A stretch of DNA of 64,000 nt. Origin: Variovorax sp. PAMC26660. Its GTDB lineage: Bacteria > Pseudomonadota > Gammaproteobacteria > Burkholderiales > Burkholderiaceae_C. The stretch spans positions 5,819,501 to 5,883,500 of the forward strand of contig NZ_CP060295.1 in the NCBI RefSeq assembly GCF_014302995.1. The letters are read 5' to 3'. Below are positions 9,945 to 19,863 of the stretch, piece by piece (within the stretch, counting starts at the first letter, position 1; the number at the start of each line of letters is the position of its first letter). Under the pieces are notes generated by a model. That model saw only the letters and a program-made list of their open reading frames with translations, made no database searches and was not told the DNA's origin. Position numbers and translations under genes: made by a program.

Positions 9945-10499
9945 TTATTTGGCTGCCGTGGCCTTTGGCAGAGCCCGCACCGCGTTCAGCATGCGTTCCA
10001 CATGTTTGTCGGGGTTCAGGTTCTGGTAGTAATAGGCGACCTTGCCGTCTGGTGCGATCACGTACGACAGTCGGTTGGCAAAGTCCGGCCGTGTCTGCAT
10101 CAAGGCATCGAAACCCTGGATCACGGCCTTGGATTCGTCCGACGCCACGGGAAAGCGGTTCTGGCAGGACTTGACCGAGAACTTCGCCAGCGTGCCGATG
10201 TCGTCCGCCGATACGCCGATCACGGTGGCGCCCAGTGCGGCGAACTGGTCGACGGCCTCGGCGAAGGCATGGGCTTCGATCGAGCAATCGTTGGAGTCGG
10301 CCGCCGGAAAAAAGTACACCACCACCGGCCCCTTGGAGAGCGCATCGGCCAGCGAATAGCGGAAGGTCTTGCCGCCCAGCGCGGCGTTGGCGGTAAAGCG
10401 GGGCACGGGGTCGCCGATGTCCAGGGCGGCCCAGGCGGGGTGGGCCAGGGCTGCAAAAACTGTCATCAAGGCGATGCGCGAGAAGGTCGATCGGGCCAT
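9945..10499 (-). CDS. periplasmic peroxiredoxin (BCP/PrxQ type)
   Basis: Thiol peroxidase of 184 residues that reduces hydroperoxides. It begins with a signal peptide (MARSTFSRIALMTVFAALAHPAWA) so it should act in the periplasm, unlike typical Bcp. The peroxidatic cysteine is in FFPAADSNDCSIEAHAF, which keeps the P-x3-S-x2-C pattern; a second cysteine in VKSCQNRFPV may resolve the disulfide. The N-terminal GDPVPRFT and C-terminal SYVIAPDGKVAYYYQNLNPDKHVE segments are standard. Start ATG 10499 is supported by GGAG about nine bases upstream. It is divergent from the phospholipase-D-like gene. Confidence 0.88.
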   Translation of the reverse strand: MARSTFSRIALMTVFAALAHPAWAALDIGDPVPRFTANAALGGKTFRYSLADALSKGPVVVYFFPAADSNDCSIEAHAFAEAVDQFAALGATVIGVSADDIGTLAKFSVKSCQNRFPVASDESKAVIQGFDALMQTRPDFANRLSYVIAPDGKVAYYYQNLNPDKHVERMLNAVRALPKATAAK

Positions 10500-10632
10500 G
10501 ATGTAACTCCGAAGCGGTGTGGGGCGAATTCTAGGCCTCGCATCCGCCGCAAGGGGCATGTGAAACCGGCAGCGCCCGGTGGGCGTACTCAAGGCAACGG
10601 CTGACAAAAACGAAGCACTGGAACCACCCCTC

Positions 10633-12207
10633 ATGAACGCCTGTATCTGTCTTCTGCGCATGGCGCTTGCGGGCGTGCTGATTGCGGCACTCGGCGCTTG
10701 CGGTTCCTTGCCCCCGGCGCGCGAGCGGCCCGCCGAGCAGGCGGCCTCGGCCGATCCGTCGACCCCGCTGGCGAAGATCGCCGCCGCCTCCACGCCGCCC
10801 GGCGAGCACTCGGGTTTTCGGCTGATGCCGCTGGGCGTGTATTCACTGGATGCGCGCATCCAGTTGGCCCAACGGGCCCAGCGCTCCCTGGTGGTGCAGT
10901 ACTACCAGCTTGAAAACGATGCCGTCGGCCGTCTGCTGCTGCGCACGCTGCGCGAGGCTGCGGCCCGGGGCGTGAAAGTGCGGGTGCTGGTCGATGACCT
11001 GTACACCGTCAACAGCCAGCAACTGCTGCTGGCGCTGTCCGAAACGCCCAATGTCGAGGTGCGGCTGTTCAACCCCTTCTGCTGCGGCCGCAACGGACTC
11101 CTCTCGCGCTTCGTGGCCTCGCCGTTCGAGATCAACCGGCTCAACCACCGCATGCACAACAAGCTCTTCATTGCCGACGGCGCGATGGCGGTGGTGGGCG
11201 GGCGCAACATCGCCGACGAATACTTCGTGCTGAGCGAGGCGCAGAACTTCATCGACATGGACGCGCTGGTGGTCGGCAAGGTCGTGCCGCAGCTCGAATC
11301 GATCTTCGATGCCTACTGGAACAGCGTGCAGGTCTGGCCCATTGCCGACATCGTGACGGGCGAGGGCGGCCGCAAGCCCGGTGTTGCCGATTTCGACAGC
11401 TGGGTCGGCATGGCCGCGCCGCCGCCGAAGATCGTGCTGCCGCCGTCCGACATCCTGGGTTACGGCCCCATCGGTGAAGAACTCGATGGCGGCCGCATGG
11501 GCCTGCTGTGGGGCGAGGCCCGCGCCATTGCCGATCCGCCCACCAAGCCTGCGACCATGACGGCCGACGAGGCCATCGCCACCAGCGTGACGATGAAGGT
11601 GTGGGCCTTGCTGCTCGATGCCAAGACCGAGGTCGACATGACCTCCCCGTACCTCGTGCCGGGCGAGCGCGGCATGGCGGCGTTCGAGGACCTGTCCAGG
11701 CGCAAGGTCAAGGTCACGCTGCTGACCAATTCGCTGGCCGCCAACGACGAGCCGCTGGTGCACACCGGTTACGCGCGCTACCGCGAGCGGCTGCTGCAAG
11801 GCGGCGCCGACCTGTACGAGCTGAGCCCGCAGCGCACCAGCGCGGGCGAGCGATTCGGCATGTTCGGCAAGTCGCTCGGCCGGCTGCACGCCAAGACCGC
11901 CGCCATCGACAAGGAGCGCATCTTCATCGGCTCGATGAACCTCGATCCGCGCTCGGCCAGCCAGAACACCGAGATGGGGCTGGTGGTCGACAGCCCGCAA
12001 CTGGCGCGCGAGATGCTGCGCGTCATCAACATCAGCAAGCTGCAGAACTCCTACCGGCTGCGGCTGGCCAAGGGCACCGGCACGCTGCAGTGGCTCACCA
12101 ACGACGGCGAAAAGGAAGTGATCCTGACCGCCGAACCCGAGTCGGGTTTCTTCAAGCGCTTCTACAACATGCTCATTGCGCCGATCGTTCCCGAGATGCT
12201 GTTGTAG
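10633..12207 (+). CDS. phospholipase D-like lipoprotein (cardiolipin synthase-like)
   Basis: A 524-residue protein with a lipobox ending LGAC (Cys23), so it is probably anchored in the envelope. Two HKD motifs are intact: HRMHNKLFIADGAMAVVGGRN near residue 174 and GRLHAKTAAIDKERIFIGSMN near residue 417. The two-HKD arrangement fits phosphatidyl transfer or phospholipid cleavage, as in cardiolipin synthase C-like proteins. Start at ATG 10633 gives a proper signal sequence; an earlier in-frame ATG at 10579 would bury it. It lies nine bases before the sterol-desaturase-family gene and may begin a lipid-related operon running to 16825. Confidence 0.88.
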   Translation: MNACICLLRMALAGVLIAALGACGSLPPARERPAEQAASADPSTPLAKIAAASTPPGEHSGFRLMPLGVYSLDARIQLAQRAQRSLVVQYYQLENDAVGRLLLRTLREAAARGVKVRVLVDDLYTVNSQQLLLALSETPNVEVRLFNPFCCGRNGLLSRFVASPFEINRLNHRMHNKLFIADGAMAVVGGRNIADEYFVLSEAQNFIDMDALVVGKVVPQLESIFDAYWNSVQVWPIADIVTGEGGRKPGVADFDSWVGMAAPPPKIVLPPSDILGYGPIGEELDGGRMGLLWGEARAIADPPTKPATMTADEAIATSVTMKVWALLLDAKTEVDMTSPYLVPGERGMAAFEDLSRRKVKVTLLTNSLAANDEPLVHTGYARYRERLLQGGADLYELSPQRTSAGERFGMFGKSLGRLHAKTAAIDKERIFIGSMNLDPRSASQNTEMGLVVDSPQLAREMLRVINISKLQNSYRLRLAKGTGTLQWLTNDGEKEVILTAEPESGFFKRFYNMLIAPIVPEMLL

Positions 12208-12216
12208 CCTCGGGGG

Positions 12217-13026
12217 ATGGCACAGACCTTCACTTCGCTGTCCGCCCTGCAGGTCATGCTGTGGGGCGTGCTTTTTTTCGGCGGCATCTACTTCGGTTTC
12301 GGCGGCCTCACCTGGCTGCTGACGAAACGGGTGTTGCCGGCGCTCGGCATCGGGCGCGCGCTCGATCCGCGCCCCCTGCAGCCGGGGCAGTTGCGGCGCG
12401 AAGTGGGGCAGTCGAGCATTTCGGTGCTGATCTTCGGGCTCGGCATGGTGTTTCCGTGGGGCTTGCTGCAATTGGGCTGGGCGCGGCTCGATCCCGATGC
12501 AGGCTGGCGGCAGATCGCGGTCGAGATCCTCGTGCTCGCGGTCTGGAACGACGTGCATTTCTGGATCAACCATCGCCTGCTGCACACACGCTTTCTGCGG
12601 CGCTTTCACGGGCCGCATCACCGTTCGTTCGTGACCACGCCGTGGGCCACCTACAGCTTTCATCCCATCGAAGCACTGATGCTGGGCAACGTGATCCTGC
12701 TGCCGATGGTGGTGCACGACTTCAGCTTCTGGTCGCTCGCGGCGGTGCCGGTGTTCAGCCTGTTCTTCAATTGCGTCGGGCACTCGAACTACGATTTCTT
12801 CACCGGGGTGTCGTACAGCCACTGGTTTGCCGCGAGCCGCCGGCATCACTTGCACCATGCCGTTCACAACGGCAACTACGGCTTTCAGTTCACTTTCATG
12901 GACCGGTTGTTCCGCACCCGTATCGCGGCCGATGCGGCCGAGCCACTTTTCCAGGCCTTCCGCGACAAGCAACTGCAAAGGCAACAACAGCAACCCCAAC
13001 CCGAACAGCATGGCGCGACCGCCTGA
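12217..13026 (+). CDS. sterol desaturase / fatty acid hydroxylase family membrane protein
   Basis: A 269-residue integral membrane protein of the fatty acid hydroxylase superfamily, which uses a histidine-bound diiron site to hydroxylate or desaturate lipids. The histidine clusters are clear: WNDVHFWINHRLLHT near residue 110, RFHGPHHRSF near 130, and RRHHLHHAVHNGNYG near 205. At least four membrane segments are predicted. The C-terminus is glutamine-rich (LQRQQQQPQPEQ). Its substrate is unknown. The stop overlaps the next gene, a second His-box desaturase, by 17 bases, which argues for co-expression. Confidence 0.88.
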   Translation: MAQTFTSLSALQVMLWGVLFFGGIYFGFGGLTWLLTKRVLPALGIGRALDPRPLQPGQLRREVGQSSISVLIFGLGMVFPWGLLQLGWARLDPDAGWRQIAVEILVLAVWNDVHFWINHRLLHTRFLRRFHGPHHRSFVTTPWATYSFHPIEALMLGNVILLPMVVHDFSFWSLAAVPVFSLFFNCVGHSNYDFFTGVSYSHWFAASRRHHLHHAVHNGNYGFQFTFMDRLFRTRIAADAAEPLFQAFRDKQLQRQQQQPQPEQHGATA

Positions 13027-13948
13027 CGCGCGCAGTCGCCTGCCGCGCCTGCGGCATTGGCGTGACTGGCAGAGCCTGGCCTACCTCGTGGCGCTGCCTG
13101 TGCTCGCGGCCTGGCAGTGGGTGCATGGCTTCAACGTGCTGCTGTATGCGTTGATGCTGTTCCTGACGCTCGGCATCGGCGTGATCCATCACAACCACGT
13201 GCACCTGCGCATGTGGCGCGGGCGGCGCATGAACCGGCTGACCGACTTCTGGATCACGCTGCTGCAAGGGCATCCGACCTTCGTGTTCTGGCCTGCGCAC
13301 GTGGCCAACCACCATCGCTACCGGCACGGGCCGAAGGATGTGGCGCGCACCTACCGTTTCGGCGGCGACACGAACCACCTGTGGGGTTATCTGCTGCACC
13401 CGTTCCAGGCGGTGTGGGTGCTGGTGCCGGTGTTCTTCGATTGGCTCGCGAGGTTACGCAGGCATCAACGCGGCGCCTGGCGTTACTGCATGGCGCAGTA
13501 CGCGCTGTGGTTGGCGAGCTGGGTCGTGCTGCTGGCGCTCGACTGGCGCAAGGCATTGCTGTTCGTGATCGTGCCGCAGTTGCATGGCCTGCACTGGCTG
13601 CTGGCGACCAACTACCTGCAGCACGCACACGCCGATGGCCGCAATACCCCGCGCAAAGAGGCGCTGGGCGATACCCCCGGGAGCGGACTGAACTACGCCC
13701 GCAATTTCGAGGGGCTGGTGAACCCCTTGCTGTTCAACATCGGCCTGCACACCGCACATCACGAGAACCCGCATGCCCATTGGTCCGAGCTCACGCACCT
13801 GCATCACACGCGCTACCGCGCGCAGGTTGCCCCTGTGCTCAACGAGGGCGGGCTGGTGCCGTACATGGTGCGGGTGTTCGTGCTGGGGGCCGTGTGGCCG
13901 CGCTTTCGCAGCCGCTCGCTGATGCCTCCCGATTCTTCAATCACCTGA
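13010..13948 (+). CDS. fatty acid desaturase family protein
   Basis: A 312-residue membrane protein with three histidine boxes of acyl desaturases: IHHNHVHLRMW near residue 60, HVANHHRYRHG near 97 and GLHTAHHENPHAHW near 265. Such enzymes introduce double bonds or hydroxyls in acyl chains with a diiron site and an electron donor; no ferredoxin or reductase gene is nearby. Four to five hydrophobic segments are seen (LAYLVALPVLAAW, VLLYALMLFLTLGIGV, AVWVLVPVFF, LWLASWVVLLAL). It overlaps the previous gene and ends four bases before the ketoacyl synthase fusion. Confidence 0.87.
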   Translation: MARPPDARSRLPRLRHWRDWQSLAYLVALPVLAAWQWVHGFNVLLYALMLFLTLGIGVIHHNHVHLRMWRGRRMNRLTDFWITLLQGHPTFVFWPAHVANHHRYRHGPKDVARTYRFGGDTNHLWGYLLHPFQAVWVLVPVFFDWLARLRRHQRGAWRYCMAQYALWLASWVVLLALDWRKALLFVIVPQLHGLHWLLATNYLQHAHADGRNTPRKEALGDTPGSGLNYARNFEGLVNPLLFNIGLHTAHHENPHAHWSELTHLHHTRYRAQVAPVLNEGGLVPYMVRVFVLGAVWPRFRSRSLMPPDSSIT

Positions 13949-13952
13949 ACCC

Positions 13953-15917
13953 ATGCCCGTTCCATTCCAACGCGTCTACCTTGAAAGCGCCGGCTATTTC
14001 ATGCCGGGCGAACCCATTCCCAACGAGCGCATGGACGCGTACATCGCACCGCTCAACCGCATGTCGGAGCGCATCAAGCGGCGCATTCTGGCGGAGAACG
14101 GCATCCTCACGCGGCACTACGCCATTGACGCCGAAGGCGTGACGCAGCACACCAACGCGCAACTGGCCGCCGGCGCGATCCGCGATTGCCTGCGGCGCGG
14201 CGGGGCCGATCTGTCGCGCGTGTCGTTGCTGGCCAGCGGATCGTCGGGGGGCGACACGTTGATGCCCGGCTTCGCGAACATGATCCAGGGCGAGCTTGCG
14301 GCGCAGCCGATGGAAACGCATTCGGTGCACGGCATCTGCGCCGCGGGCGTCTCGGCGATCCAGACGGCCGCGCAGGGCATCGAGCTGGGCGCGCACCGTA
14401 CGGCGATGGCGGTGGCGAGCGAGATGCCGTCGCGGCTGTTCAAGCGCTCGCGTTTTGCAGCACGTGGTTACGAGACCGACTTCGACTCGCACTTCCTGCG
14501 TTGGATGCTGTCCGATGGCGCAGGCGCCTTGCTGCTGTCCGATGGTTCGCCTGCGCTGGCGGGTGTGCCGGGGTTGCGCCTGAAGCTGAAGTGGGTGCAT
14601 CAGCGTGCCTTCTCGGGTGACTACCCGGTCTGCATGCAGCTCGGCTTGACCGAAGACCGCGCGCGCGGCCACCTCGATTTCGGCTCATGGGCTGAAGCGG
14701 AAGCCGCCGGCGCGCTGTCGCTGCGGCAGGACATCCGCCTGCTGCCGCACCTGTTCGACATCGGCATTCACGAGTACGCGGGGCTGGTGCGCGATGGCTG
14801 GGTCGATCCGAAGCGCATCGATCACTTCCTGTGCCACTACTCGTCGGAAAAATTCATTCCGGTGGTGGAAGACCTGATGGCGAAGGCCGACCTGTCGATT
14901 CCGCGCGAGCGCTGGTGGAGCAACCTGGCGTGGCGCGGCAACACGGGCGCGGCGTCGATCCTCGTGATGCTGGCTGAATTCCTGCACACCAAGACGCTGA
15001 AGCCCGGCGAGCAGATATTCTGCTATGTGCCGGAGTCGGGCCGGTTCATGGCGGCGTACATGCTGCTTGAGGTCGAGGCGGTCGATGCGGCAGCAGTTGC
15101 CGTGGCAACCCGTGCGGCAGCTCCGGCGGTGCCCGATGACGATTTCGTCATCGCGCCGCCGCACGATCCGGCCGCCGCGCCCGAAGGCCTTGGCGCCTTG
15201 CTGACGGAACTGGCCGCCATCTGGCACGACTACCGCTCGCGCGTCTGGCGCACGCCGCTGATCCGCCAGATCCGCGAGCGCCGCTTCGCCTTGCCCGACT
15301 ACCTGAACTGGATGGAGCAGTGGGTGCCCCAGGTGCGCGAAGGCAGCCTGTGGATGCGCGAAGGCGCGGCCTCGCTGAGCGAGCCGTACCAGATGCTGGC
15401 CTCGCTGATCGACGTGCATGCGGGCGAAGAGCAGAACGACTTCAACATCCTGTTCGACGACTACAAGAAGGCCGGTGGCACGGTCCAGCAGATCGGCGAG
15501 CTGCGCCGCAACCCCGGTGGCGAGGCGCTCAACGCCTACCTGCACGGGTTGGCCGCCACGCGCGACCCGATCGGCCTGCTGGGCGCCATCTACATCATCG
15601 AAGGCACGGGCCAGCGCATCGTGCCGGCGCTGCTGCCGCTCATCAAGGCGGGCCTGAAGCTGCCGCCCGATGCCTTCCGCTTTCTCGAATACCACGGCCA
15701 CAACGACGAAAACCACCTGAGCCGCTGGCTCGTGGCGGTCGAGATGGTGATGGCCGTGGAAGGCCAGGCCCGCGCCGCCCGCCAGATCATCGACACGGCG
15801 CGCCACACGGCCGCGCTGTACCTGATGCAGTTCCAGCACATCACGGAGCGAATGAGACATGAGCCGCCGGGCCGCCCCAAGGCGAATACCGCAGCCGCAG
15901 GCGGAGGTTTCCAGTGA
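13953..15917 (+). CDS. fusion of ketoacyl-ACP synthase III-like and heme-oxygenase-like diiron oxidase domains
   Basis: A 654-residue two-domain protein. Residues 1-375 are a KASIII/thiolase fold with nucleophile Cys129 (VHGICAAGV), His295 (FLCHYSSEKF) and Asn330 (WRGNTGAAS), so the Cys-His-Asn triad for decarboxylative condensation is intact. After an Ala/Pro-rich linker (about 376-410), residues 411-640 form a helical heme-oxygenase-like domain with candidate iron ligands His489, Glu492/493, Glu550 and the HxxxDxxH motif His581, Asp585, His588 known from CADD and SznF-type oxidases. The pairing suggests building a beta-keto acyl product and oxidising or cleaving it. The stop overlaps the next gene by GTGA. 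Product unknown. Confidence 0.85.
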   Translation: MPVPFQRVYLESAGYFMPGEPIPNERMDAYIAPLNRMSERIKRRILAENGILTRHYAIDAEGVTQHTNAQLAAGAIRDCLRRGGADLSRVSLLASGSSGGDTLMPGFANMIQGELAAQPMETHSVHGICAAGVSAIQTAAQGIELGAHRTAMAVASEMPSRLFKRSRFAARGYETDFDSHFLRWMLSDGAGALLLSDGSPALAGVPGLRLKLKWVHQRAFSGDYPVCMQLGLTEDRARGHLDFGSWAEAEAAGALSLRQDIRLLPHLFDIGIHEYAGLVRDGWVDPKRIDHFLCHYSSEKFIPVVEDLMAKADLSIPRERWWSNLAWRGNTGAASILVMLAEFLHTKTLKPGEQIFCYVPESGRFMAAYMLLEVEAVDAAAVAVATRAAAPAVPDDDFVIAPPHDPAAAPEGLGALLTELAAIWHDYRSRVWRTPLIRQIRERRFALPDYLNWMEQWVPQVREGSLWMREGAASLSEPYQMLASLIDVHAGEEQNDFNILFDDYKKAGGTVQQIGELRRNPGGEALNAYLHGLAATRDPIGLLGAIYIIEGTGQRIVPALLPLIKAGLKLPPDAFRFLEYHGHNDENHLSRWLVAVEMVMAVEGQARAARQIIDTARHTAALYLMQFQHITERMRHEPPGRPKANTAAAGGGFQ

Positions 15918-16825
15918 ATCGAACGCCTGAATTTCTGACCCAGGCACACGACGAGCGCGACCCCAGTCCGTGGCTCGCGCTCTACCTCGACCAGAGCACG
16001 CCGCTGCCGGACAACGTCAAGTCGGCGTGGCTGGCCGATTCGAGCTCGGGTTCGCGGCAGTACCTGCTGCCTTTCTTGCGGCCGTTGGCGCGGCTGACGA
16101 TCATCCTGATCCAGATCGTCAAGGTGTTCGTGCCGCGCAACTGGTCGCACTCGAAGCTGCTGCACCGGTTCCTGGCCTGGGGCCTGACGCGTTTTGTGTC
16201 ACCGGAGGCCAACTGGCTGATCCTGCGGCACTTTCACCTGGGCTCGCAGGTGCTGGCCTTCATCGGGCGCAATTCACCGGCGCCTGTCGCCACGAACCCG
16301 CTGGAGCCGGCCGACATCGACGCGCTGAAGGACGAGATGTTCCTCAAGCACGACCTGAACCTCTTCAACTTCGTGATTCGCCTGAACACGGCGCTGCGCG
16401 AGAAGGGGCTGGCGCTGTGCAAGGCCGAGAAGGTCGATTTCTCGATGATCAAGGAGCCGGGCCTGCGGCTGGAAGACATGCCGCACGGCAAGCTCAACTT
16501 TCTCGATCTTCAGAGCGCGATCGAGCTTTTCACGCCGCTCTACCAGTTGATGCTGACCGACAACGATTTCTGGCGAGCGGCCAACTCCTTGCAACTGGAC
16601 GAAACCATCGGCATCTACACGGCGACCCTGCTGAATGCGCCCGAACACCTGATCCTGGTCAACAACAAGCACCCGCTGGTGCCGCTGTCCACCCTGCGCG
16701 CGGGGCACCGGCTGGTGATCCACGGGTTGTCGACCGAGATGCTCCACAGCCTGCTCCAGCGGATGCAGGCAGCCCAGAAAGCGGGGGAGGCCGAGACGAC
16801 CCTGTACGAGCAGCCACTTGCATAG
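15914..16825 (+). CDS. unrecognised protein coupled to the KASIII/diiron fusion
   Basis: I do not recognise this 303-residue protein. It starts at GTG 15914, which overlaps the stop of the fusion gene (GTGA), so translation is very likely coupled and the two products may form a complex. One hydrophobic stretch, FLRPLARLTIILIQIVKVFVP around residue 55, could be a membrane anchor or an amphipathic helix; the rest looks soluble and helical (SHSKLLHRFLAWGL, LKHDLNLFNFVIRLNTAL, FTPLYQLMLTDNDFWRAANSLQLDETIGIYTATLLNAPEHLILVNN in separate parts). No catalytic signature or cysteine cluster is evident. Context alone ties it to acyl-chain metabolism. Confidence 0.75.
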   Translation: MNRTPEFLTQAHDERDPSPWLALYLDQSTPLPDNVKSAWLADSSSGSRQYLLPFLRPLARLTIILIQIVKVFVPRNWSHSKLLHRFLAWGLTRFVSPEANWLILRHFHLGSQVLAFIGRNSPAPVATNPLEPADIDALKDEMFLKHDLNLFNFVIRLNTALREKGLALCKAEKVDFSMIKEPGLRLEDMPHGKLNFLDLQSAIELFTPLYQLMLTDNDFWRAANSLQLDETIGIYTATLLNAPEHLILVNNKHPLVPLSTLRAGHRLVIHGLSTEMLHSLLQRMQAAQKAGEAETTLYEQPLA

Positions 16826-18261: not shown

Positions 18262-19104
18262 TTATCGAGCGGTGGCCGCCTCGGGTGCGGCGCCCACCGG
18301 CGCGTACTGCGCGCGGTTGTCCGCCAGCCAGCGCGTCGACAGGCTGCTGTCTTGCTGTGCCGGGTGGAAATCCGCACGCAGGTAGCTGCGCCAGCCGCGC
18401 AGGTTGCCGCGCAGCAGGCCATTGCGGCTCAACAGGATGCGCGCGGCGCTCGTCCAGGTCGACCACTTCCACAGCTGCTTTTCGTGGCGCAGGTTGTCGA
18501 CGGTCTGGTGCATCAGGTCGCTGAGAAACATGATCGTCACGCGGCGGAACCAGCGCTTGCGCCATGCCTCGGAACCATCTGCAGCCTTGTAGATGTCGAA
18601 GGCGACGCTCTTGTGCTCCAGCTCTTCGGCGCTGTGCCACAGCCACATAGTGCGCAGGCGCGGTTCGGCGCCGTCGAGCACTTCGGGGCGCGCGAGCAGC
18701 CATTCGGCAAACATCGCTGTGAAGTGCTCGGTGGCGGCGGTGACAGCCAGCGCATGGCGCGGGTCGGCGCCTTCCATCAAGGTCATGCGCTTGCCGGCGC
18801 GCGCGGTCCAGCCGTCCACCAGACCCTGGCTTTCGAGATGGGTGTTGAACAGCGAGTGAATGCGGCGGTGCGTGGCCTCTTGGCCGATGAAGCCGCGCAC
18901 ATCGGCGCGGTACTTTTCCTGCACCTCGGGCGGCAGGGTGGCCACCGCGTCGCGCACGGCGTCGATGAAGAACTGCTCGCCGAATGGAAAACTCATCGAC
19001 AGGGCGTTGAAGAAAGCGGTCGAGAATGCATCGCCGCCGCACCAGTCGCGGGAAAACGGCGATTGCAGATCGATCAGAAGGCGGCGGACAACGAGTTCAG
19101 TCAT
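18262..19104 (-). CDS. predicted metal-dependent hydrolase, ferritin-like (PF10118 type)
   Basis: A 280-residue helical protein of the family annotated as predicted metal-dependent hydrolases. It shows a repeated carboxylate/histidine pattern typical of a diiron four-helix bundle: FIGQEATHRRIH near residue 73, AATEHFTAMFAE near 125 and HSAEELEHKSVAFD near 157. Biochemical role is unknown; the pattern allows an oxygenase role as well as hydrolysis. It is transcribed divergently from a TetR regulator, and the 129-base gap holds two copies of an inverted repeat, so it is probably the repressor target. Confidence 0.82.
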   Translation of the reverse strand: MTELVVRRLLIDLQSPFSRDWCGGDAFSTAFFNALSMSFPFGEQFFIDAVRDAVATLPPEVQEKYRADVRGFIGQEATHRRIHSLFNTHLESQGLVDGWTARAGKRMTLMEGADPRHALAVTAATEHFTAMFAEWLLARPEVLDGAEPRLRTMWLWHSAEELEHKSVAFDIYKAADGSEAWRKRWFRRVTIMFLSDLMHQTVDNLRHEKQLWKWSTWTSAARILLSRNGLLRGNLRGWRSYLRADFHPAQQDSSLSTRWLADNRAQYAPVGAAPEAATAR

Positions 19105-19149
19105 GAAAACAATCCTCGAAAAAGCACGGGCTGTGTGGGGTGGAAGGTT

Positions 19150-19165
19150 GGTACAACTTCGTACC
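19150..19165. promoter_or_regulatory. candidate TetR operator 1
   Basis: Inverted repeat GGTAC-N6-GTACC between the divergent hydrolase and TetR genes. The same 5-6-5 design recurs at 19194-19209, with centres 44 bases apart, about four helical turns. The arrangement suits a dimeric TetR repressor controlling both promoters. Sequence shows the repeats; binding is inference. Confidence 0.65.
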
Positions 19166-19193
19166 GAATGCCTCCATGGTGCAATCGCGAGTT

Positions 19194-19209
19194 GGTACTG
19201 TCAAGTACC
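19194..19209. promoter_or_regulatory. candidate TetR operator 2
   Basis: Second GGTAC-N6-GTACC inverted repeat, in both copies preceded by TT. It lies 24 bases before the chosen TetR start, a position that would allow autorepression. The spacer differs (TGTCAA against AACTTC), so conservation is limited to the arms, as expected for an operator. Confidence 0.65.
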
Positions 19210-19233
19210 TAGACGTAGGAAAATGTGCCATTC

Positions 19234-19863
19234 ATGAGCGCAACCATCGAAAAAACAGCCGTCGCCAAGCCTGCTGAAGGCCCGGCCAACGAACATTACG
19301 CCCGTCTGCTCCAGGGCATGGCGCAGGCGGTGGCGGCCAAGGGCTATGCCGAAACCACCATTGCCGACATCGTGCGCGAGGCGGCCGTCTCGCGCCGCAC
19401 GTTCTACGAGCACTTCAGCACCAAGACCGAGTGCCTGATCGCGCTCTACGAAACCGCGAGCCGGCTGGCCCTGCAGGCGGTGAGCGAGGCCTTCGACCCG
19501 GTGCAGCCCTGGCATGCGCAAGTCGAGCAGGCGATGACCGCGTACTTCGACTATCTGGCGCAAGACCCGGTGCTGCTGCGCACGCTCTTCGTCGAGATCC
19601 TGGGGCTGGGCATGCCGGGCCTGGTGGTGCGGCGCCGGGTGAACGACGAGATCGCCAACTTCATCCAGATCGCGATCAACAGCAGCGGCAGCGCGGAGGG
19701 CCCTGCAGCGCACCTGACGAACGAGATGGCGATGACCGTGGTCGGCGGCATCAACGAACTGGTGTTGCAGTCCATCGAGCAGGATCGCGCGGGCGACCTG
19801 CGTGAACTGGTCGGGCCGGCCACGCGGCTGGTGCGCGCGGTGGCGGCCGAGAGCCAGCGCTAA
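19234..19863 (+). CDS. TetR family transcriptional regulator
   Basis: A 209-residue regulator. The N-terminal helix-turn-helix is ETTIADIVREAAVSRRTFYEHFSTKTECLIALY, residues about 42-75, followed by a helical ligand-binding domain. ATG 19234 gives MSATIEK; a GTG at 19225 is an alternative that sits closer to AGGA at 19217-19220. It is divergent from the predicted metal-dependent hydrolase and overlaps the stop of the export permease on the other strand by four bases. The likely target is the divergent promoter, where two matching inverted repeats occur; the ligand may be a hydrophobic compound. Confidence 0.9.
   Translation: MSATIEKTAVAKPAEGPANEHYARLLQGMAQAVAAKGYAETTIADIVREAAVSRRTFYEHFSTKTECLIALYETASRLALQAVSEAFDPVQPWHAQVEQAMTAYFDYLAQDPVLLRTLFVEILGLGMPGLVVRRRVNDEIANFIQIAINSSGSAEGPAAHLTNEMAMTVVGGINELVLQSIEQDRAGDLRELVGPATRLVRAVAAESQR

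Follow-up and report, generated by a model that had tools for sequence, protein, structure and literature searches.

DarB is described as joining an enoyl chain with a beta-ketoacyl chain to form a 4-carboxy-2,5-dialkylcyclohexane-1,3-dione, a finding credited to Fuchs 2013 and Mori 2016 (PMC5515871), and in Azoarcus the gene darA, annotated as DAR-aromatase, adjoins darB (PMC3949708). Among heme-oxygenase-like oxidases (HDO), UndA converts fatty acids to 1-alkenes and CO2 by a mechanism that is presented as unsettled, involving either attack at C3-H or oxidation of the carboxylate, in a review which also lists 3H/3C and 3H/4C ligand sets together with a mononuclear variant, and which does not contain the word ketosynthase (PMC13108848). 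The published HDO motif is E-H-E-H-(D/E)-H, and approximately 85% of 150 HDO network groups carry E-H-X-H-D-H or E-H-X-H-E-H, with approximately 9% having no strong prediction (PMC11363339).

The window analyzed in the present work is a stretch of 64,000 nucleotides from Variovorax sp. PAMC26660, the genome of which is 7.39 Mb and a single contig. It contains a block of four genes in which a ketosynthase (KS) and an HDO domain are joined in one protein, encoded between two membrane enzymes and a member of the curated family DUF6999 (Table 1). No described product for a KS-HDO-DUF6999 unit was found among the open-access literature matches listed, in agreement with the initial annotation, which knew of no characterized pathway with this gene set.

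Organization of the four-gene block

The four genes follow each other nearly without gaps, as had been proposed, and all four open reading frames were confirmed. When ATG 13010 is taken as the desaturase start (the mechanically defined open reading frame begins earlier, at TTG 12827), the hydroxylase and desaturase genes overlap by 17 nt, 4 nt separate the desaturase gene from the fusion, and the DUF6999 gene starts with a GTG and overlaps the fusion by 4 nt.

Table 1 Features of the block and the adjoining gene, in window positions
Feature	Position	Strand	Basis
PLD/cardiolipin-synthase-like gene	10627..12207	+	PF13091; outside conserved core
Membrane hydroxylase, fatty-acid hydroxylase/sterol desaturase superfamily, 269 aa	12217..13026	+	PF04116, His boxes
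Membrane fatty-acid desaturase-family protein, 312 aa	13010..13948	+	PF00487, three His boxes
KS-HDO fusion protein, 654 aa	13953..15917	+	PF08541 and PF14518 above cut-off; AlphaFold2
Ketosynthase domain, residues 7-375, nearest StlD, C129/H295/N330	13971..15077	+	
Ala/Pro-rich linker, about residues 376-404	15078..15164	+	low pLDDT; borders estimated
Heme-oxygenase-like (HDO) domain, about residues 405-632	15165..15848	+	PF14518; profile match to 3dde; ligand invariance
DUF6999 protein, 303 aa, modelled helical	15914..16825	+	PF22523

Both membrane enzymes exceed their Pfam gathering scores and carry the expected His boxes (hydroxylase, 77.7 bits against a cut-off of 31 for PF04116, with HxxxxH, HxxHH and HHxHH; desaturase, 73.6 bits against 29.7 for PF00487), and neither retrieved an NCBIfam match or, by phmmer, a solved relative. 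The fusion scores 34.4 bits both against PF08541 (cut-off 26.6) and against PF14518 (gathering score 28.9), which places its C-terminal part in the HDO family and upholds the earlier reading of the protein as a condensing enzyme joined to such a domain. Its AlphaFold2 model has a mean pLDDT of 81.2, with values below 50 in the linker (residues 382-398), and a pTM of 0.57, so that each domain is modelled but their placement relative to each other is not fixed. The last gene had been called an unknown partner; its function is indeed still without description, and no open-access paper naming DUF6999 was found, but it does belong to a family, being a full-length member of PF22523/DUF6999 (436.6 bits against a gathering score of 27). 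Its model (pLDDT 86.4, pTM 0.86) returned no Foldseek match in the PDB at E<=0.001.

The hydroxylase gene begins 9 nt downstream of the PLD-like gene, which is possibly co-transcribed with the block in the window; the PLD-like gene lies immediately 5' of the block in most Variovorax loci, and no close relative of it adjoins the block in the Achromobacter and Bordetella loci. Further downstream (18262-19863), a PF10118 metal-dependent hydrolase gene is found with a divergent TetR regulator gene, the latter with weak scores to fatty-acid regulators; this pair adjoins the operon in many Variovorax loci and not elsewhere.

Recurrence of the block and separate-gene versions of its core

Of 212 relatives that were confirmed by scanning genomes, the best 80 were analyzed. 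The fusion is a single open frame of 600-663 aa at all 80 loci, and it is adjoined by the desaturase at 79, by the DUF6999 gene at 78, by the hydroxylase at 76, and by all three at 76. A block that is whole at 76 of 80 loci, with a fusion frame open at every one, is not a chance arrangement, and the gene order, which the initial annotation had proposed to check, is conserved at these loci. The lone locus without an adjoining desaturase (L068) is cut by the end of its contig. The genome of locus L041 has no close hydroxylase (31%). The enzyme is not strictly required: in G883 the match reaches only 31%, and G316 yields none. In the latter genome, of 2.2 Mb, the desaturase beside the fusion is divergent (approximately 40%) and occurs in two pieces with a stop (L097, 11479-12317), and it is perhaps decaying.

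Two Variovorax genomes (loci L037 and L066) have the desaturase-fusion pair alone, far from the hydroxylase and DUF6999 genes, which are found elsewhere together with the PLD-like gene and the downstream genes in the usual Variovorax order. Both genomes retain all four genes, the fusion and this type of desaturase being present as single copies, and we infer that the pair has moved. Beside the relocated pair of L037 lies a gene for a further PF00487 membrane enzyme (9953-11167), which may be AlkB/XylM-like.

The flanks of the block differ from genus to genus. One long open reading frame, chosen by length within 2.5 kb, was considered on the 5' side of the block at ten loci and on the 3' side at nine; three of the ten and four of the nine have no Pfam match and may not be genes. 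Apart from TctC, shared by two sister loci, and AraC, encountered once on either side, the families recognized are mutually unrelated (DHDPS, AraC, aminotransferase, PLD, ABC, HipA, TonB receptor, UbiA and GGDEF).

Beyond the close relatives, DUF6999 is present in 9 of 398 genomes representing the phylum, 13 of 250 representing the order and 6 of 289 representing the class of G223, corresponding to 21 different genomes, among them that of the window. KS and HDO sequences lie immediately 5' of the DUF6999 gene in all 21, the KS being seen only in part in four (G494, G524, G611 and G734). The two are in one frame in 14 genomes, all of the window's order, and are separate neighbors in the other seven, namely G368, of the window's class, and six of the class of G223, which is taken to be Alphaproteobacteria on the names of the HDO relatives (Maricaulaceae, Parvularcula, Rhodospirillaceae) and on a match in Caulobacter; the control genome of Caulobacter vibrioides has matches to both DUF6999 and PF14518. 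A pathway built around the fusion had been suggested: the pairing of KS and HDO holds in every one of these genomes, but the fusion itself is not essential to it, as the seven with separate genes indicate.

On a Pseudoalteromonas plasmid the KS, HDO and DUF6999 genes are likewise separate and successive, and the 185-aa protein encoded ahead of them is common to G368. Proteins of this kind, 185-188 aa long (L128, 6436-6993; L099, 11441-12007), are encoded ahead of the separate KS, HDO and DUF6999 genes of two gammaproteobacteria; the two are 64% alike and, as judged by eye, hydrophobic, and contain several His/Glu motifs without matching a Pfam family. In G223, a protein combining MFS, acyltransferase and AMP-ligase parts is encoded 3' of DUF6999 (L098, 4697-8098); its architecture is presumably Aas-like, and a link to phospholipid is possible.

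No membrane desaturase match was obtained in any of six separate-gene genomes, comprising alpha and gamma versions (G734 being outside this set), and hydroxylase matches are distant in four of them (26-35%) and absent in two; both membrane enzymes were seen adjoining the core only in the window's order. It therefore seems that the core comprised three genes, that the fusion arose later by a single joining event, and that the two membrane enzymes were added in the window's order. In protein searches at least 3229 sequences, among up to 7996 candidates scored, match the fusion query at E<=0.001, the 120 listed all having both domains, and 3883 match DUF6999.

Ketosynthase and heme-oxygenase-like domains

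The proposed catalytic triad Cys129/His295/Asn330 proved correct: in a 108-row alignment the three positions read C in 92, H in 105 and N in 105 rows, the remaining 16, 3 and 3 rows having gaps and no other letter, and each is retained in all 120 relatives listed. The domain is 34-35% identical to StlD, which is also its best structural match (5gk0, 5gk2). Based on its thiolase fold, its triad and this closeness, it is assigned as a putative StlD/DarB-type ketosynthase; it is a condensing enzyme, as the KASIII label had implied, but a plain KASIII it is not, its nearest relatives being the ring-closing StlD/DarB enzymes. It shares fold and triad with these but differs in being fused or adjacent to HDO and DUF6999, and in scoring 314.2 bits against NF005293 (StlD/DarB beta-ketosynthase; curated NCBIfam cut-off 450) and 254.2 bits against NF053539 (DarB; cut-off 550), so that its substrates may differ.

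OleA was considered as an identity for the KS and set aside, since OleA entries rank behind StlD both by sequence and by structure. A linear, OleA-like head-to-head Claisen condensation by the KS, with the HDO decarboxylating or cleaving the resulting beta-keto acid to a long-chain ketone, alkene or alcohol and the membrane enzymes tailoring it, is a rather unlikely course.

The window's genome also encodes a DarB-like paralog (L145, 7559-10070, from genome position 5129558), followed by genes for a DarH acyltransferase and an ABC transporter. It scores 590 bits against NF005293, above the cut-off, and 468.8 against NF053539, below it, and no DarA was recognized beside it. This paralog, together with the closeness of the operon KS to StlD, could be read in favor of dialkylresorcinol synthesis of the DarB-like type, with the HDO contributing oxygen by ring hydroxylation or quinone formation and aromatization being spontaneous or due to a distant DarA. 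Such a course is nevertheless unlikely, because the operon KS, besides falling below the DarB cut-offs, is placed outside the group holding the paralog (support 82/79); a common origin of the three KS groups is weakly supported in the tree. In contrast to dialkylresorcinol clusters, the block has no aromatase, ACP or DarH gene recognized by Pfam or NCBIfam, a comparison in which the aromatase search had no confirmed DarA model as positive control.

In the HDO domain, the HxxxDxxH motif noted at residues 581-588 is present, and seven residues of metal-ligand type (H489, E493, D496, E550, H581, D585 and H588) show no variation across 104 rows, i.e. the 108-row alignment minus four KS-only rows. 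The same seven are invariant in all 120 listed fusions and in all 120 listed relatives of the separate HDO, sets which consist in part of the same proteins as the alignment. Position 494 is Gln in 24 fused domains and His in 7 separate ones of the 31 compared, and His in all 120 listed separate relatives. A profile of the 31 domains aligns to the solved protein 3dde (E 4.5e-12), placing H489 opposite a His, E493 opposite a Glu and D496 opposite a His. The domain resembles UndA, SznF, BesC, CADD and 3dde in its PF14518-type likeness and in having E...E...HxxxDxxH in the same order; it differs from 3dde and the published motif in that Asp496 occupies the position of the first-helix His and that the invariant His489 precedes it on that helix, and from all of these proteins in being joined to a condensing enzyme.

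The canonical diiron motif E-H-E-H-(D/E)-H was tried and does not fit: the fusion reads E493-D496-E550-H581-D585-H588, and considering the invariant Asp in the first-His position its HDO was not filed as a canonical diiron enzyme. The predicted set is E-D-E-H-D-H plus the extra His489, being either 2His/4carboxylate or, with a displaced His, 3His/4carboxylate; a similar set may already exist among the approximately 9% of network groups with no strong prediction.

Because of the same substitution, the metal site could be altered or inactive; the substitution would also suit an HDO-like domain that no longer performs O2 chemistry but has a structural, lipid-binding or metal-sensing role, with oxidation left to the membrane enzymes. 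This is very unlikely given that all seven ligand-type residues are invariant in each of the three sets, separate genes included, and that the separate-gene versions tested lack the desaturase. Two more PF14518 proteins are encoded in the genome (717424-717936 and 4739544-4740074), and separate HDO proteins of approximately 230 aa (P0250, P0252, P0296 and others) bear the name '3-oxoacyl-ACP synthase' in their source, which was probably transferred from the fusion.

Proposed pathway

The conserved pairing supports the initial proposal of an acyl-derived pathway with a KS and an HDO at its center, in which, we infer, a carbon chain is made and then oxidized on the same protein. That the HDO, the only soluble oxidase of the core, oxidizes the KS product within one pathway is probable. 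It is conceivable, and put forward tentatively, that the unit is a self-contained biosynthesis of an acyl-derived, probably ring-bearing lipid, with ring closure by the KS and oxidative decarboxylation by the HDO.

The specific ring chemistry, with KS and HDO acting on a cyclohexanedione, is modelled on described enzymes and is proposed with somewhat greater reserve. Fatty-acid metabolism would supply the KS with a beta-ketoacyl and an enoyl thioester, from which it would close a 4-carboxy-2,5-dialkylcyclohexane-1,3-dione in the manner of DarB. The HDO, using O2, would then strip the carboxylate oxidatively by UndA-type chemistry, with loss of CO2 and formation of a C=C bond, to give a 2,5-dialkylresorcinol after tautomerization or a more oxidized ring, and would thereby take over the function of DarA, a separate aromatase. 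The desaturase and hydroxylase would tailor the chains, and DUF6999, the steady partner, would perhaps be an electron-transfer, metal-loading, transfer or second catalytic subunit. In favor of this model are the position of StlD as nearest relative by sequence and by structure, the oxidase domain fused on, and the lack of an aromatase-family match among the four block genes in Pfam and NCBIfam. Against it stand the KS scores below the StlD/DarB and DarB cut-offs, the Asp in the first-His position of the HDO, the placement of the two domains, which the structure model does not fix, and the lack of desaturase matches in the six alpha and gamma genomes; in addition, Pfam and NCBIfam revealed no ACP, ligase, thioesterase or transporter gene in the block. 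The step in which DarA is replaced is without a control, as no DarA was recognized beside the DarB-like paralog either.

The HDO might instead act on a nitrogen-bearing or other partner substrate, by N-oxygenation or in making an amine-lipid, with the KS yielding an acyl-amine-derived product. This is quite unlikely, as none of the four block genes is recognized by Pfam or NCBIfam as encoding an aminotransferase, a PLP enzyme or another amine-handling protein, and a single aminotransferase was seen, upstream in one other locus (L043).

In its fullest form, which is doubtful, the ring-closing proposal describes a new enzyme architecture, a one-protein oxidative cyclase: an StlD/DarB-like KS would condense two fatty chains into a carboxylated cyclohexanedione, and a dimetal HDO, with a ligand set that was not found described, would strip off its carboxylate oxidatively and so aromatize the ring with the help of DUF6999, giving a new lipid class spread over alpha-, beta- and gammaproteobacteria.

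The core is common in proteobacteria, yet no described product was found for it. The system would provide an HDO wired to a condensing enzyme, an altered HDO metal site to compare with those of UndA and SznF, and a role for DUF6999, a curated family without described function. It would also represent a candidate new lipid in Variovorax, Achromobacter and Bordetella and, via the separate genes, in alpha- and gammaproteobacteria, for which the matches in Caulobacter vibrioides mean that a tractable organism may be at hand.
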